From: Corbicula japonica | Lineage: Eukaryota; Mollusca; Bivalvia; Venerida; Cyrenidae | NCBI GenBank assembly: GCA_038501625.1 | Contig: JAZAYU010000890.1 | Span: forward strand, 1-64,000 | Reading direction: 5' to 3' | Length of the DNA: 64,000 nucleotides | Part shown: one piece after another, positions 4,376 through 64,000 of the stretch | Numbering within the stretch: the stretch's first letter is position 1 | How the letters are laid out: the number at the start of each line of letters is the position of its first letter | Notes under the pieces: generated by a model | Told to the model about the DNA's origin: nothing | Database searches by the model: none | What the model saw: the letters and a program-made list of their open reading frames with translations, nothing else | Position numbers and translations under genes: made by a program

Positions 4376-5106
4376 TACAGCGAGACCACGAAAACGCGAA
4401 ACAACGATGCGAGAACGCGAAAACACGATGCGAGGTCGCGAAAGTACGATGCGAGAACGCGATATTAATATCGCGCCCTCGCATCGTTGTTTCGCGTTCT
4501 CGCATCGTTGTTTCGCGATCTCGCATCGTGTTTTCGCGTTCTACCATCGTTGTTTCGCGTTTTCGTGGTCTCGCTGTCCTTAGGGTGAGATCACGAAAAC
4601 GCGAAATCACGATGCGAGAACGCGAAACAACGATGCGAGATTGCGAAAGTACGATGCGAGAACGCGATATTAATATTCTCGCATCGTACTTTCGCGATCT
4701 TGCATCGTGTTTTCGCGTTTTCGTTGTCTCGCTGTCCTGAGGGCGAGACCACGAAAACGCGAAAACACGATGCGAGAACGCGAAACAACGATGCGAGGTC
4801 GCGAAAGTACTATGCGAGGGCGCGATATTAATATCGCGTTCTCGCATCGTACTTTCGCGATCTCGCATCGTGTTTTCGCGTTTTCGTGGTCTCGCTGTCT
4901 TGAGGGCGAGACCACGAAAACGCGAAAACACGATGCGAGAACGCGAAACAACGATGCGAGGTTGCGAAAGTACGATGCGAGAGCGCGATATAAATATCGC
5001 GTTATCGCTTCGTACTTTCGCGACCTCGCATCGTTCTTTCGCAACCTCGCATCGTTCTTTCGCGATCTCGCATCGTGTTTTCGCGTTTTCGTGTTCTCGC
5101 CCAAGA
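4376..5106. repeat. CpG-rich array of large palindromes built on a 20-bp subrepeat
   Basis: Four long inverted repeats follow one another, centred near 4466, 4671, 4830 and 4993. Three have a core close to CGCGATATTAATATCGCG. Each arm is made of 20-bp subrepeats of the form CGCGAAANNACGATGCGAGN, running toward the centre on one side and away in reverse complement on the other. A GAGACCACGAAAACGCG block and a GCTGTCCTGAGGGC spacer separate adjacent palindromes. CpG density is far above the AT-rich surroundings. The subrepeats lack stop codons in several frames, so long arginine/serine-rich ORFs appear on both strands; these are by-products of the repeat and not genes. Confidence 0.9.
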
Positions 5107-8706: not shown

Positions 8707-8949
8707 ACGAAATATCTGCTGCTTTCAACAGGTTTTAATGTCATATAAGTAAAGTAATTTAACGGTAACTCTGTAAAATGACGCACTTCACCTATTTAGT
8801 ATAATAACTGTGGACTTGTCCGAAAGGTCACAGCTCACGGGTCAAAATCGAACTATACAGAAAATAACAAGTATTCACATAATATTGCATTTTTTGTTTA
8901 TAGGGATGTTCTATAACGTATAATTCTGCATTAAGCTTATCCTTATATT

Positions 8950-9560
8950 TACCTTTGTATGGTTCCTCTAAAACATTTACCTCTGCATGGTTCTTCTAAA
9001 ACATTTACCTTTGCAAGGTTCCTCTAAAACATTTACAATTGCATGGTTCTTCTAAAACATCTACCTTTGAATGGTTCCTCTAAAACATTTACCTTTGCAT
9101 GATCCCTTTAAAACACGAACCTTTGAATGGTTCCTATAAAACATTTACCTTTGCATGATTCCTATATAAAACAGGAACAATTGCATGGTTCCTCTTAAAC
9201 ATTTACCTTTGCATGGTTCCTCTATAAAACATTTACCATTGCATGGTTCCTCTAAAACATTTACCTTTGCATGGTTCCTCTATAAAACATTTACCATTGC
9301 ATGGTTCCTCTAAAACATTTACCTTTGCATGGTTCCCATATAAAAGATTTACCATTGCATGGCTCCTCTAAAACATTTACCTTTGCATGGTTCCTCTATA
9401 AAACATTTACCATTGCATGGTTCCTCTAAAACATTTACCTTGCATGGTTGTTCTATAAAACATTTACCATCGCATGGTTCCTGTAAAACATTTACCTTTG
9501 TAATGTTCCTCTTAAATATTAGCCTGTGCAAGGTTGTTCTAAAATATTAACCTTTGCAAA
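8950..9560. repeat. Minisatellite, about 21 copies of a 28/30-bp unit, related to a splice-donor flank
   Basis: The unit is close to TTTGCATGGTTCCTCTAAAA followed by CATTTACC. I count about 21 copies. Left copies are diverged; from about 9180 rightwards, 28-bp units alternate with ~30-bp units (CTCTATAAAA in place of CTCTAAAA), giving a dimeric higher-order repeat of about 58 bp. On the minus strand, the receptor's coding strand, each unit reads GGTAAATGTTTTAGAGG. This closely matches the intron sequence directly after receptor exon 2, GGTAAATATTTTAGAGG at 9829-9813. The array lies about 270 bases downstream of that exon in the direction of transcription. Confidence 0.9.
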
Positions 9561-14377: not shown

Positions 14378-14626
14378 CAGACAGACAGACAGACAGACAG
14401 ACAGACGGACGGACGGACGGACGGACGGACGGACGGACGATCCTACAGATGGGCATTTGTTGGGTATTTCTTTTGTTTAAAACTACCCAACAAGCGAAAA
14501 ACTACCCAATAAGAGACTAACGGAATGAATGGAAAGTTCTCACAGATGGGCATTTGTTCGGTATTTCGGTACCCAACAAGTGCCCATCGGTACGCCCGGA
14601 CGGACGGACGGAGGGACGGACGGACG

Positions 14627-14661
<35 letters not shown>
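14378..14661. repeat. Mirrored tetranucleotide microsatellites flanking a small palindrome
   Basis: A (CAGA)n run (14378-14406) passes into (CGGA)n (to 14440). After ~155 bases, (CGGA)n (from about 14596) passes back into (CAGA)n (to 14661). The order is mirrored on the same strand. The spacer has two direct copies of CAGATGGGCATTTGTT (about 14446 and 14544). The second forms a hairpin with TACCCAACAAGTGCCCATC (about 14571-14589). A family S repeat fragment begins immediately after the second microsatellite. Confidence 0.85.
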
Positions 14662-22052: not shown

Positions 22053-22246
22053 ATGATCTCACGTATAGACCTTTATGTCGGTACGGGACTTTATTTATTA
22101 AAAACGTCCTATGTATATCTCTTATTATGTTTAGTATTTCCTGTCACAGCCAGGGATTGTATTGGAAGAGACCAGTGTTCGTGCCAGTTTGACGATGGAG
22201 GTCTAGTGGCTTTAAACAGCCTGGGAAATTCGGACATGACTGCAAA
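22053..22246 (+). CDS. MRH-like domain protein exon 1: signal peptide and first domain strands
   Basis: This 194-nt exon gives 64 residues plus two bases. It starts MISRIDLYVGTGLYL, has a hydrophobic stretch (about residues 20-36, YVYLLLCLVFPVTA) that reads as a signal peptide, and continues RDCIGRDQCSCQFDDGG, then LNSLGNSDMTAK. The C-x(5)-C-x-C-x-F-DDG pattern followed by a LxxLG turn is how I know the start of mannose-6-phosphate receptor homology (MRH) and related lectin-like domains in invertebrate secreted or type I membrane proteins. The donor is GCAAA|GTAAGT at 22247 (phase 2). The ATG is the first plausible one ahead of the signal peptide. The exact family (MRH, ATG27-like or other) is uncertain, and no ligand can be inferred. 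Confidence 0.7.
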
Positions 22247-22763
22247 GTAAGTTACATTTGTAGCTCAAATATTTAACATCTTCATGACCGAGCATTTACT
22301 TCTTTTTAATCATTAATAGGTTATCAAATAACGATTTTGTCGTTTTTTCCCTGTGATCTATTTTTATAAGCATTTTTATTCACTTGTTAATGTGTGAGGG
22401 GTGTAGAACATCCCACATTTTTCATTCATAGTTTATGTCTGCATTTTATGTTTTGGGAGGGCCCTTTCGAATCACAGGCCATCCCAAGGGTATGGCTTGT
22501 GAACATGTGACCTGTCATATGAAGTTGATCTTTCTTAAACTGTTTCTTAAAAGGTTGCTAAAGTATGATCGGAAAAAATCTTTTCTTTTAATTATTTTTT
22601 TCCTTCAAACCATTGTACGATCTTGTCTTTGGAGGTAGTGTCGTGGTTATGAAACCCGACATTAAGTTGGATTGAAGTGAACACTCGTAAAGTTTGGATG
22701 AAATCCCTACGTCAGTTGCAAAGTTATGATCAAAAAGCTAGAACTGCGACCTTTTTAAACTAA

Positions 22764-24298: not shown

Positions 24299-24395
24299 AT
24301 TCCAAGATGTGTTGTCGGCAGATGGCGATAAATACTCCTACAATCCATGTTACCCTTTCTCTGAAGGTTCTCAGGGGGACTGTCAACAGGCAGCG
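24299..24395 (+). CDS. MRH-like domain protein exon 2
   Basis: This 97-nt exon supplies the last base of a Lys codon and 32 residues, FQDVLSADGDKYSYNPCYPF then SEGSQGDCQQAA. FxDVxSxDG followed by YSYNPCxPF is the expected continuation of the MRH-like domain. The acceptor is TTGTTAG before 24299; it restores the frame from exon 1 (AA+A). The donor is GCAGCG|GTAAGT at 24396 (phase 0). The last 50 bases of the exon with this donor form the first unit of a nine-copy 65-bp tandem repeat, so eight further copies of the exon end follow. Only use of the first donor is clearly compatible with the domain: reading on unspliced meets a stop in the second unit. Later exons of the domain were not found. 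Confidence 0.75.
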
Positions 24396-24930
24396 GTAAG
24401 TAGTAATATACATGTTACCCTTTCTCTGAAGGATCTCAGGGGGACTGCCAACAGGCAGCGGTAAGTAGCAATATACATGTTACCCTTTCTCTGAACGTTC
24501 TCAGGGGGACTGTCAACAGGCAGCGGTGAGTAGCAATATACATGTTACCCATTCTCTGAAGGATCTCAGGGGGACTTTCAACAGGAAGTGGTAAGTTGCA
24601 AAATACATGTTACCCTTTCTCTGAAGGATCTCAGGGGGACTGTCAACAGGCAGCGGTAAGTAGCAATATACATGTTACCCTTTCTCTGAAGGATCTCAGG
24701 GTGACTGTCAACAGGCAGCGGTAAGTAGCAATATACATGTTACCCTTTCTCTGAAGGATCTCAGGGGGACTGTCAACAGGCAGCGGTAAGTAGCAATATA
24801 CAGGTTACCCTTTTTCTGAAGGATCTCAGGGGGACCATCAACAGGCAGCGGTAAGTAGCAATATACATGTTACCCTTTCTCTGAAGGATCGCAAGGGGAC
24901 TGTCAACAGGCAGCGGTAAGTAGCAATAAA
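24346..24930 (+). repeat. 65-bp minisatellite, 9 copies, each carrying an exon end and a splice donor
   Basis: Units start at 24346, 24411, 24476, 24541, 24606, 24671, 24736, 24801 and 24866, with an exact 65-base spacing. Each begins near CATGTTACCCTTTCTCTGAA, contains the coding block GGGGACTGTCAACAGGCAG, then a GTAAGT donor and AGCAATATA. The donor is intact in all copies (GTGAGT in the third). The first unit overlaps the real exon 2. Because 65 is not a multiple of three, the coding frame is not kept through the array. Confidence 0.95.
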
Positions 24931-25692
24931 CAGATAAACACGCTAAAGATGCCTTTAATTAGTCCTATAATGAAATAGGAAATTTTACAATATATAAGTT
25001 TAAAGTGCGGTACCATTTTGCGCTTGTAAATTATAAATTATTTGGATTGTTGGTATATGATAGTTCTCATGGTTTCTTGCTAGTAACGACTTGATATCAT
25101 TTTGGAATTATTCATAACATGTTTAATCAAATCAAATTATTTAGCAATATTGTGACATAAACTTTGTCGTGGTCGGTGTTTTTTAATTTCCTCTTCATCT
25201 ATTTAATTACAAAAGTAGCGTTGTTTGTGGCGTGTGGGGGCCATAAAACTCCAATCATAACAAAGGACAATCGTGACAAGTGTGGATTTGCATGAACATA
25301 TTTTGTTGCTCTAACAAATAAAGAAATTTTCTGAAATTAAGCATCTGAATTTAATTTTAATCAGTCTGTTTTCGCAAAATTACAAGTGGAATCTTGATTT
25401 TCTTTTCTTCGTATCCACTTCCTTGCATTTTACCAATATACTGTCACGTATGTGATCCGTCTTAATCAATTCCTATACATATGGAATATTACATGTAAAA
25501 AATTGCTGCTAATGCAGCAAAAGGAGTACACGGCCTAAAAAGCGAGCTGTGTGTCAAACCATTCCATTTTAACTATTTGTAAACCTGTTTGAAATGTGTA
25601 TTATGCCTATTCGATTATTTGGTTGTTTTAGCCATCGTTATCTAACTTGGTTAGGGGAAATGAGAAAATCAGGGAAACTACTCAGCGCATAT
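24931..25692. other. Stretch after the minisatellite, no further MRH exon recognised
   Basis: AT-rich. It contains a family S fragment at about 25165-25260 (AAGTAGCGTTGTTTGTGGC and GTGTGGGGGCCATAAAACT, matching 16030-16070). No exon with the remaining cysteines of the MRH-like domain could be identified. Confidence 0.45.
25165..25260. repeat. Dispersed SINE-like repeat fragment (family S)
   Basis: TTTCCTCTTCATCTATTTAA followed by AAGTAGCGTTGTTTGTGGCG and GGGGGCCATAAAACTCC, parallel to the copy at 16000-16145. The right half of the family is missing or diverged. Confidence 0.5.
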
Positions 25693-26381: not shown

Positions 26382-27578
26382 TATTGTTTATTCTAATCAG
26401 GTTCGAACTATGATTTTACTTTTTGGGCTACGTTTGCCTTAATCGTAAAATCATTCTAAAGAGACATCACACGCGCGATCAATAGCGATTTGAACACTGG
26501 GACAGCGGAGGAGATGATTTTGGCTGCATAACAGTGGCATGTCGATATGAAAAAGTTACTTATTTATAATACACTTATATGTAATCATTTGGTAAATTAA
26601 ACGGTTAAATCATATACTGAAATACTGCAAGCAATAATAGGATCCCAGTTCATAAATTTGATATCGATTCTCTCTATAATAATAATTTTACATAAATATG
26701 AAAACAAAAAATGGATCAGTAATTATGTTTTTAGATGCGGATCAAGAGTCGTTGTTTTGTTTGTTTGTTTGTTCTATTTTTTTTTTTTTTTTTTGGGGGG
26801 GGGGGGGGTGAGGAAGAGGGGTGGGGTGGGGGGTCGGGGTGTGATCGAACCCCGTTTGATGCAGAATTATTTAAATTTCACGGAGATGTTGCTACTTTTG
26901 GAAATTATCATGTAATTATCATAAGACGACCCCAACGAACCCCTTTATGAAAATCTAGCCTCCGACCCTGTTCTTTGAATACGACATTGTTTTCCATATT
27001 CTGTGTAGCGCTGCTTATTCCATACATTTAACTGGTATTACCTCCTTACTCAACCGTGGCTTTAATACCCTGAGGAAATCACGCAACATATCGCCATTTC
27101 CTGGATGTTGACACTTGACTTTTATGTATTATGTATTAGGCAAACCGACAACGATTTTCATGCAAAAACGAAGACCTGATGGTAGGAGTATATTGTATAT
27201 CACCTACCTTCTTATTCTTGAAATTGCTAAAGCAGTGTAGCGGTGATCTATCGATGTTAATTCATTTCGGCTGATAACAACAGCAATCTACATCATGCTT
27301 TACCTCTTTTGTCTGTACCCTTCCCTTCTAAGGCATGGGCCTTTCTGTCATCAAGTTGACAGATGTTGGGTAGTTTAGGCCTATGCCTGTCTTGTACAGT
27401 TTGGACACAAATAGCGTAGGTTTGAATCTAAAGGGGAATATAATCAGCAAGGTGCGAAGTAACATAACTTTGAAAGGCTGCGCGATTTTAAAGAAATTTG
27501 ATGAGGAGAAGGTGCTCCTAACTCCATTTACTTAAGAAGGAAATCAGTTCTCTGATGCGGTGCCTGTTTACATAAAAT
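26382..27578. other. Intergenic stretch with a poly-T/poly-G tract
   Basis: A long T run passes directly into a G run and then a G-rich, purine-biased segment (about 26777-26840). It has G-quadruplex potential on the plus strand. No gene was recognised elsewhere in the stretch. Confidence 0.5.
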
Positions 27579-28290
27579 TTGCCCTTGTTCACATTAGCTA
27601 ACCTCTGTCGATGGGGACTGTCGACAGACCCAACATGCAAGCTCTGTGACCTCCCAGACACTTTAGAACATGTCCTGTCTTCCTGTTCTACAGCGCTGAC
27701 ACAAGGAAGATTTAGGTGGCGTCATGACAACGTCCTCAGAGAGGTGGCTGACTGGCTGGAAATTGAAAGAAAGAAGGATCGAAGAAGTAACCCGCAGCAA
27801 CGTCACATCAACTTCGTAAAGCCGGGTGAAGCTGCCAAACCACAGCCAATCAATCCTGGATGGTACTACAGGTTTGAACATGGAGGTGGACCTAGGAAAG
27901 AAGCTCGTGTTCCCAGGTATTGTCCAGACCAACCTAAGACAAGATATCGTACTGTGGTCGGAAACAGGGAAGAAGCTCATCCTGATCGAGCTAACAGTAC
28001 CCTGGGAAACACGATGTGAAGAAGCCTACGAGAGGAAGAAAGCCAAGTATACAGAGCTTCTGAAAGAGTGCAGAGAGAGAGGCTACCGCACATGGCTGTT
28101 TCCCATTGAAGTAGGCGCCAGGGGATTTTGTTCTCAATCTGTGTGCCGACTGATGGCAGCAATCGGGACGACTGGCAGAGACAGGCGCAGGACAATTCAA
28201 AAACTGAGCCAAGCTGCAGAGCGTGCGTCTAGCTGGCTGTGGCTACGACGAGAGGAGAAGAGCTGGAAGCTATCGACCTCCACACCGTAA
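27579..28290 (+). pseudogene. 3' end of a non-LTR retrotransposon: zinc knuckle and restriction-like endonuclease region
   Basis: The first frame gives CRWGLSTDPTCKLCD, whose CKLC...H...C fits C-x2-C-x7-H-x4-C. This is the CCHC knuckle located after the reverse transcriptase in retrotransposons with a restriction-like endonuclease (R2/HERO-type). From about 27826-27870 the reading moves to another frame. That frame gives EVDLGKKLVFPG, DIVLWSETGKKLILIELTV and PWETRCEEAYERKKAKY, then WLFPIEVGARGF and AAERASSWLWLRREE. The D-x(n)-E-L-T region is the candidate PD-(D/E)xK-like nuclease core, with RQD where RPD is usual. The reverse transcriptase is missing, a stop precedes 27579, and the frameshift splits the rest, so it is dead. 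The clade assignment is from memory. Confidence 0.75.
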
Positions 28291-43913: not shown

Positions 43914-44373
43914 GATCAGCGTACACTAAATAAAAGCTGCTTCCCGGTTGGTTAAAAAAAAAGTTAGGGGAAACCCGTAAGACTCTATAGAAACATTAGT
44001 TGATTGGCCAATATAGCTAAGGAAAAAATAAAACTCCTTCTAAAAAATAGAAATTGTGTATTTCTGCAGCTGTTGGAACCAAAAATCATTATCCAAAACA
44101 TTTTGGATAAGAAAAAAATTACTTTTAAAATAATGCCTATAAACAGGTTAGCCACAAGTAAATTTAGTCAATAGGCAAGGGTGGTAGTCTTCAAAGTGAA
44201 ATTTGAGGTAGAAACCTACGGTCATGGTGGTATTTCATCTATGTTTTTATGTAGATTTATATTCAAACTTCATCAGAAGACCATGCCTGATATTGTCTAA
44301 GAATAAATAAATCAAGGAGACTCCCAAGACTCTATATAGAACATATAGGGAAACGCAATAGTGTACGCTGACC
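43914..44373 (+). mobile_element. R element (MITE-like), copy 2, right border of satellite block A
   Basis: 460 bp, direct repeat of copy 1. Its left flank is the satellite border GACGCTTAA; its right flank is TAAAC of unique sequence. The inner flanks of the two copies (TTAA on both) together look like a TTAA target-site duplication in a satellite unit. The outer flanks (TTATA and TAAAC) would belong to a different insertion. Confidence 0.85.
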
Positions 44374-45427
44374 TAAACTTTCTCTTTCTTTCAGAAGTAC
44401 CGCGAGACTGTTTTCCGAAAATTTTATTTATGTGATATTTTTTTAATAAATGACAACAAACTGCATCAATTCTTTTCTACATGTTTTAATCTAAGTCCAG
44501 AATACAAATATAAAAAAAAATACGAAAAAAATAAGAAACTATTTTATTCAGAAATCACGATCGTGAAGTTCCGTATCCAGTCGGCCTTTTTCGGACGCTG
44601 TGTGGTATATGGGCCCCATCTGGGTCCCGTATGGGCAGTTAGCCCAGATACAGCCCATATGGGGCCCATTTGGGCTTGCGTGCTGGGAACGTCGCTATCC
44701 CAATTTTTAACTGAGAGAACTGATAAAGTTACATAAAGCGCATTATTTCTCGTGTCATTTAATATATTTTTACATATTCAGTAACTGTCTATTGAAAAAA
44801 TTGTTGATTTCAATAAAAAAAAATAAAATATGATTAATTTTACGCATAGCTGCAATGTCGTCATACATACGCTTACCCCCCTGACCGATTGTACGGAAAT
44901 ATCGACTTCCGTAGTTTAGACACTAATTTCGAAATGGTCAATTGCACACGGATCAATGTCTTATTGTCCTATCAGAAAACCTTATTTGCAAACCGGAAGA
45001 CACGGTTTCAAAGTCTCAAGGTACTCCTTTATGCTCATGCGCAATACCGTTATCGGAATCGACACGACACAATTTGACGCGCTTCGTAGGGTCGATTCCG
45101 TATGAAGACTGTCAATATTTTAGTGTCTGTTAACTTTGTTCGATGCGCCTTGCTATTAAATACTGAAACAGACTATCATGTATATGAATGTAAAGCTTTC
45201 GCATTGACTTTCAGATAAACAATATTTCCTGACACTGAACGCTTCCGATACGAGAGAGATGCTTAAGAAAGTTGTTTCGAGAAATTTTCGGGATCCTCCA
45301 CTGGTGCATGGATTTGCTGCAAACAAATGGAAACCTTGGATACAAGGTGTATGGAATATGATACAAATCAGATTTGGAAATGATCTTATAGTTTTTAGTG
45401 ATCTTCAGATCTTTCCTGTGTTATTTG
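44374..45427. other. Unique segment between R copy 2 and the gap, with a palindromic GGGCCC-rich repeat
   Basis: About 1 kb, mostly AT-rich. Around 44607-44680, words such as TGGGCCCCATCTGGG, AGCCCAGATACAGCCCATAT and GGGGCCCATTTGGGC form overlapping inverted repeats. An open frame from 45259 runs into the gap, but its 56 readable residues are not recognised. Confidence 0.55.
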
Positions 45428-45927
45428 NNNNNNNNNNNNNNNNNNNNNNNNNNNNNNNNNNNNNNNNNNNNNNNNNNNNNNNNNNNNNNNNNNNNNNNNN
45501 NNNNNNNNNNNNNNNNNNNNNNNNNNNNNNNNNNNNNNNNNNNNNNNNNNNNNNNNNNNNNNNNNNNNNNNNNNNNNNNNNNNNNNNNNNNNNNNNNNNN
45601 NNNNNNNNNNNNNNNNNNNNNNNNNNNNNNNNNNNNNNNNNNNNNNNNNNNNNNNNNNNNNNNNNNNNNNNNNNNNNNNNNNNNNNNNNNNNNNNNNNNN
45701 NNNNNNNNNNNNNNNNNNNNNNNNNNNNNNNNNNNNNNNNNNNNNNNNNNNNNNNNNNNNNNNNNNNNNNNNNNNNNNNNNNNNNNNNNNNNNNNNNNNN
45801 NNNNNNNNNNNNNNNNNNNNNNNNNNNNNNNNNNNNNNNNNNNNNNNNNNNNNNNNNNNNNNNNNNNNNNNNNNNNNNNNNNNNNNNNNNNNNNNNNNNN
45901 NNNNNNNNNNNNNNNNNNNNNNNNNNN
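45428..45927. other. Assembly gap of 500 Ns
   Basis: Exactly 500 undetermined bases, the usual arbitrary scaffold gap size, so the true distance is unknown. The sequence resumes in mid-satellite, about 46 bases into a unit. Confidence 0.98.
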
Positions 45928-63900: not shown

Positions 63901-64000
63901 TCATTTCATGCATACTGACTATTTTTAAAGCATTTTGGATCTGATAATTCTTTATTTCATGGGATTTTGATATAGGATTACCTATGAGGAGTGACATCAT
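45928..64000 (+). repeat. 2,093-bp macrosatellite, block B, eight near-complete/complete units plus a partial one
   Basis: The first unit lacks its first ~46 bases to the gap. Complete units start at 47976, 50069, 52162, 54255, 56348, 58441 and 60534. A partial unit starts at 62628 and runs off the window. Subfamily markers: the first two units have GCATGTTTTGTTATG where the later ones have GCATTTTTTGTTATG. All block B units read GCATACTGAC, whereas units 2-5 of block A read GCATATTGAC. Spacing is 2,093 bp, or 2,094 where a T run or A run gains a base. No coding gene is recognised in the unit. Confidence 0.97.

Follow-up and report, generated by a model that had tools for sequence, protein, structure and literature searches.

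What happens to a gene when the end of one of its exons, together with the splice donor, is repeated many times in tandem? This question is raised by a locus in the bivalve Corbicula japonica (assembly GCA_038501625.1; 1.07 Gb). The window that we analyzed is the first 64,000 nucleotides (nt), i.e., 64 kb, of the 129,888-base contig JAZAYU010000890.1, and it carries a minisatellite at positions 24346 to 24930, within a gene for an MRH-like membrane protein. As assembled, a 65-bp segment across the boundary between exon 2 and intron 2 of this gene is tandemly amplified to nine copies. By the gene model, copy 1 provides the exon end expected for the protein family, and copies 2 to 9 occupy the first part of a 70-kb intron. 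We consider it probable that the array is a variable-number tandem repeat (VNTR) whose extra donors serve as decoys, perhaps with some unproductive splicing as a result.

Nine copies of an exon end and its splice donor

The array is made up of nine full 65-bp units on the forward strand, head to tail and in register, without insertions or deletions. Tandem Repeats Finder (TRF) called it at 24346 to 24932 (period, 65 bp; 9.0 copies; 0% indels; score, 1034), and this call and the register alignment together confirm a claim made in an earlier note on this DNA, namely, that the end of exon 2 and its donor occur nine times at a 65-bp period. Each unit combines 50 nt of exon with 15 nt of intron start: nt 1 to 50 correspond to the last 50 nt of exon 2, and nt 51 to 56 are the donor. 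The same note had a donor kept in every copy, and this is the case, with the hexamer GTAAGT in eight copies and GTGAGT in copy 3. Relative to the consensus, copies 1 to 9 carry 2, 1, 3, 6, 0, 1, 0, 4, and 3 substitutions, respectively (20 in sum); copies 5 and 7 are identical, and copy 4 is the most diverged. Identity at a lag of 65 bp is 0.93 within the array, and no other 520-bp stretch of the first 33 kb exceeds 0.34. The array extends across an exon/intron boundary and multiplies the donor there, which places it in the donor-spanning minisatellite or VNTR type represented by human ABCA7, CBS, and IFI6.

When the 1.07-Gb genome was searched with an 801-bp query including the array, the window was the single match; the search skipped very common words and scored the best candidates only. 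Within the window, no further copy of the unit was found, the other match being only a 15-base chance match. A transposon or dispersed repeat as the source of the unit was rejected, given the lack of a second window copy and the single genomic place. The junctions between units would be compatible with a 2-bp CA microhomology (left edge, TCCATG; right edge, AACAGA). A structured RNA was likewise rejected, as the fold of two units had a z score of −1.12 and 23 of 200 shuffled sequences folded equally well or better. The window had no Rfam match, and a 29-base stretch of the unit had 0 exact matches in viral contigs.

The host gene

The gene that hosts the array is intact: seven exons lie in order on one strand of one contig and, when spliced, give an open frame of 266 amino acids (aa). 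The coding part of exon 1 (22053 to 22246), supported by tblastn, the gene model, and its donor score, provides the start codon, an N terminus that reads like a signal peptide, and the first part of the MRH-like region, and it is followed by a GTAAGT donor at 22247. Exon 2 (24299 to 24395; tblastn and gene model) is 97 nt long and ends in phase 0 with the residues CQQAA. The gene model places the remaining exons on the same strand of the contig beyond the window, at 94847 to 94965 (exon 3), 95770 to 95854 (exon 4), 97038 to 97156 (exon 5), 98173 to 98299 (exon 6), and from 98588 onward (exon 7). No exon 3 was found inside the window by tblastn with three queries (P0001 to P0003) or with 58 relatives, and the idea of a gene fragment or pseudogene was rejected once exons 3 to 7 had been located further along the contig.

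The spliced 266-aa model scored above the cutoffs of two Pfam families, PF09451 (ATG27; 54.9 bits versus 27) and PF02157 (Man-6-P_recep; 38.6 bits versus 25.4), which supports the earlier description of the gene as MRH-like; exons 1 and 2 alone matched no Pfam family and had no PDB match. The predicted product is thus an MRH-domain membrane protein resembling Atg27 and the cation-dependent mannose-6-phosphate receptor, and the model also had a weak match to the cation-independent mannose-6-phosphate receptor (E = 0.0013). Exons 1 and 2 agree with a Mercenaria mercenaria protein (LOC123532604 isoform X2) at 74% over 65 residues, and the spliced model agrees with a Mercenaria protein at 61% across 204 aligned model residues. 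A profile search limited to scoring the 7993 best candidates yielded 58 relatives at an E value of ≤0.001, and those named to species were mostly molluscs. The gene belongs to a family in this genome, with a cluster of matches in both orientations in a 62-kb part of contig C55 (3896227 to 3958439) and further matches on contigs C80, C17, and C284.

Donor 1 as the probable ancestral donor

Among the nine donors, donor 1 (GTAAGT; 24396 to 24401) alone joins exon 3 in frame, in phase 0. In the resulting junction, GDCQQAA is followed by ACSISALGE, and this stretch aligns with AQAAACETSLGE of Mercenaria, with CQQAA/ACSIS opposite AQAAACETS. Junction excerpts were obtained from 49 of the 58 relatives, and 27 of them contain the exact motif CxxAA[AV]C. 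The loop from NPC to AxC, measurable in 43 relatives, spans 11 to 13 residues in 40 and 17 to 22 residues in the other three; the donor-1 form of the clam protein has 14. Five paralogous exon 2 ends (L015, L019, L020, L022, and L023) were found in a search that scored 30 candidates, so that five is a minimum, and all five have their donor at the same codon. These comparisons make donor 1 the most likely ancestral donor of exon 2. TRF detected an array over the exon 2 donor in none of the five paralogous loci; L019 has a two-copy 20-bp repeat that starts 7 nt inside the intron. Since the paralogues share the donor codon and lack the array, the array most likely arose in the present gene from a single donor.

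Downstream donors and their predicted consequences

The GT dinucleotides of donors 2 to 9, located by donor scoring on the forward strand (24461 to 24921), lie at 24461, 24526 (GTGAGT), 24591, 24656, 24721, 24786, 24851, and 24916. Scoring used a donor matrix, a set of acceptor weights, and the 5′-end sequence of U1. The nine array donors score between 5.26 and 5.38, and their duplexes with U1 have energies between −9.1 and −11.0 kcal/mol; all are at or above the 99.75th percentile among 6822 GT sites on both strands, and they account for 9 of the 17 GT sites in the window (both strands) that score at least 5.26. Near-equal scores of this kind support the earlier suggestion of nine competing donors.

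Exon 2 would be 97 nt long with donor 1, 162 nt with donor 2, and 227 nt with donor 3. Donor 2 adds 65 nt without a stop, shifts the frame, and leads to a TAG in exon 3, about 20 nt past the junction, whereas donors 3 to 9 include a TAA at 24462 to 24464 (forward strand), in the frame of the extended exon and at least 61 nt upstream of the exon 2/3 junction. All eight downstream donors would be unproductive, because each meets a stop; skipping of exon 2 leads to a stop as well. The expectation that a downstream donor would extend the exon into a premature stop thus stands as far as the stops are concerned, but the outcome is not a single one, as the stop reached from donor 2 lies in exon 3 after a frameshift.

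The favored reading, a VNTR adding decoy donors, would work through exon definition, with the acceptor of exon 2 mostly paired with donor 1 to give the 266-aa protein. Donors 2 to 9, almost equally strong, would then act as decoys, and the likeliest leaks would be to donors 2 and 3. Leaked RNA, carrying a premature stop, would probably be degraded or yield a truncated receptor. A dedicated function is not needed to explain the array, and its copy number, seen here in one assembly, probably differs between individuals.

Substitutions among the copies

Donor positions hold 1 of the 20 substitutions, compared with 1.85 expected (P = 0.44), and the substitutions give no sign that the donors are specially kept. 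Across the four parts of the unit, the counts are 8, 7, 1, and 4, against 8.9, 6.5, 1.8, and 2.8 expected by length. Nucleotides 30 to 50 carry five nonsynonymous and two synonymous changes (P = 0.53), while a deficit of nonsynonymous changes appears over nt 3 to 50 and sits outside nt 30 to 50. This deficit could reflect constraint, conversion with the coding copy, or chance, given that four tests were made on a small number of changes.

It is also one of several points that weigh against the favored reading. Over nt 3 to 50, copies 2 to 9 have seven nonsynonymous and seven synonymous changes where 76% nonsynonymous changes are expected (one-sided P = 0.031), and inclusion of copy 1 gives seven and eight (P = 0.013); this is the chief result that plain intronic drift does not predict. 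Strength does not discriminate among the copies, and an intron-proximal donor could win. The acceptor of exon 2 is weak, at the 65th percentile of a crude score, and the case for the use of donor 1 comes from protein conservation. The paralogue control is mixed: three of the five paralogues have no GT in the next 640 nt that equals their own donor in strength, but there are three such sites in L020 and one in L022, i.e., competing donors also occur where there is no array. For comparison, the array gene has seven later GTs that equal or exceed donor 1 in strength and eight within 0.2 of it. Finally, in human ABCA7, VNTR length altered exon 19 skipping and not unit retention (PMC5954066).

Alternative explanations

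The best-surviving alternative, which we regard as possible yet clearly less likely than the reading above, is that donor 1 is essentially always used and the downstream copies are ordinary intron. The spread of substitutions across the unit, about as length predicts, is what a silent bystander would show, and the 97 nt from the start of exon 2 to donor 1 fit it as well. The near-identical donors in an identical 50-nt context speak against such silence, as does the reported use of downstream units in the human parallels.

A regulatory role appears rather unlikely. In this scheme, a larger number of units would shift splicing toward the downstream donors and lower the receptor level through nonsense-mediated decay (NMD), and the array would be kept for that purpose. 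The near-equal strength of the eight downstream donors, all of them leading to stops, and the position of the stops for donors 3 to 9 would suit it, and a review reports lower activity of human CBS with more repeats (PMC5188458). The donors, however, are without excess conservation, and a simple copy-number rheostat is disfavored because the length of the ABCA7 VNTR left unit retention unchanged.

A more speculative idea, to which we give little credence, concerns the length of the intron. U1 is known for protecting long introns, and the nine donors might form a U1 landing pad at the start of the 70-kb intron that aids the definition of exon 2 or suppresses premature 3′-end formation, with leakage to donors 2 to 9 tying receptor dose to copy number. 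Intron 2 is 70,451 nt long in the gene model, occupying 24396 to 64000 of the window on the forward strand and ending at contig position 94846, while in four paralogues it measures 552, 1264, 971, and 861 nt; the link between array and long intron comes from one gene.

A ladder of in-frame 21-nt microexons (GDCQQAA), proposed in the earlier note with CTCAG as the acceptor in each copy, is very improbable. CTCAG is present in eight copies, but copy 9 has no AG at that place. In crude acceptor scores, which were displayed for copies 1, 2, and 9 only, a pyrimidine-backed GAAG upstream of CTCAG ranks higher (99th percentile) than CTCAG itself (92nd and 82nd in copies 1 and 2, respectively), and by unit arithmetic the GAAG acceptor would give a 29-nt, frame-shifting piece. 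The 44-nt one-unit intron is sterically doubtful, with about 22 nt from the donor to a branch-like GTTAC, against a minimal productive donor-to-branchpoint length of 46 nt in a human study (PMC11291888). No coding constraint is seen in nt 30 to 50, the stretch of the putative microexon, and no repeated block was seen in the 49 relative excerpts, in which the measurable NPC-to-AxC loops have 11 to 22 residues. In its favor, the frame stays open with 0 to 7 blocks inserted, and since human introns of 43 to 65 nt are reported to be spliced (PMC8363638), the ladder is unlikely rather than impossible. An assembly artifact that multiplied or collapsed units is equally improbable, for although there is a single assembly and the contig has scaffold gaps, just two of the nine copies equal the consensus, six of the other seven carry changes that are unique in part or whole, and the flanking exons lie in order on the same contig; the exact copy number of nine is uncertain.

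Other repeats in intron 2 and the window

Much of intron 2 consists of a 2093-bp satellite, identified by repeat comparison, which runs from 33439 to the end of the window at 64000 with an interruption at 43915 to 45927 and continues to contig position 93858. Its pieces sum to about 54 kb of the intron and are 97 to 100% like the reference monomer, mostly above 99.5%. The satellite is strand skewed (GC skew, about 0.2), and its longest stop-free frame is 98 aa. Gaps of 500 N lie within intron 2 at 45428 to 45927, inside that interruption, and at contig positions 78621 to 79120, and there are other interruptions too. Also inside intron 2, at 27576 to 28019, is a reverse-transcriptase-like remnant (Pfam zf-RVT; 24.6 bits, below the cutoff of 27.5).

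Elsewhere in the window, a tandem array with a period of 163 bp (4389 to 5085) has 21-bp blocks of CGAGAACGCGAAAAAACGATG alternating with near reverse complements, so its single strands could form hairpins. A second minisatellite (8947 to 9558) comprises 10.7 copies of a 58-bp unit made of two 28-bp-like halves, and two tetranucleotide repeats are present, GACG (15.0 copies; 14380 to 14439) and CGGA (16.2 copies; 14597 to 14661).

Comparison with known donor-spanning arrays

The clam array looks like an additional example of a repeat type found in a few human genes. In CBS, donors within the repeats are reported to be used, and the IFI6 minisatellite, reportedly described by Turri et al. in 1995, has a 12-bp unit. 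The best tested parallel is the VNTR in intron 18 of human ABCA7, a 25-bp repeat that opens on the exon 18 donor GT and is known to vary in length, from about 12 to 427 units; when the next unit's donor is used, 25 nt are retained, the frame shifts, and the RNA is NMD sensitive (PMC5954066). As in ABCA7, the clam array sits at a donor, and use of the donor in the following unit would shift the frame. The two differ in that the ABCA7 unit is 25 bp long and starts with the GT, whereas the clam unit is 65 bp long, includes 50 nt of coding exon, and is known from sequence alone.

The human CBS VNTR, at the exon 13/intron 13 boundary (PMC5188458), has a 31-bp unit of fixed length with substitutions between units, and its notation, c.1444_1467+7(16_21), implies 24 nt of exon end and 7 nt of intron (PMC2630376). 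This makeup is like that of the clam unit, but the CBS array has 16 to 21 short units and varies in people. In the minisatellite of human IFI6 (6-16, G1P3), two downstream units are reported to serve as donors, giving three mRNAs (PMC4526556); those isoforms encode proteins, while the downstream donors of the clam lead to stops. Duplications across splice boundaries have been described as sources of new potential introns in a potato RdRp gene (PMC4974935) and in Drosophila (PMC2891723). There, the new intron is used, whereas the clam copies sit in an existing intron. We found no molluscan donor-spanning array in the literature searched, which covers few subscription journals. The nearest case is a length-variable 27-bp intronic minisatellite in an abalone TSSK1-like gene, for which donor coverage is not described there.

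Because the human arrays in ABCA7 and CBS have reported effects on splicing or enzyme activity, a bivalve case beside them suggests that such arrays arise independently and are tolerated. The C. japonica gene puts donor choice by the spliceosome to a natural test, since it presents nine almost identical donors at 65-nt intervals, all with one and the same 50-nt exonic context and all ahead of a 70-kb intron.
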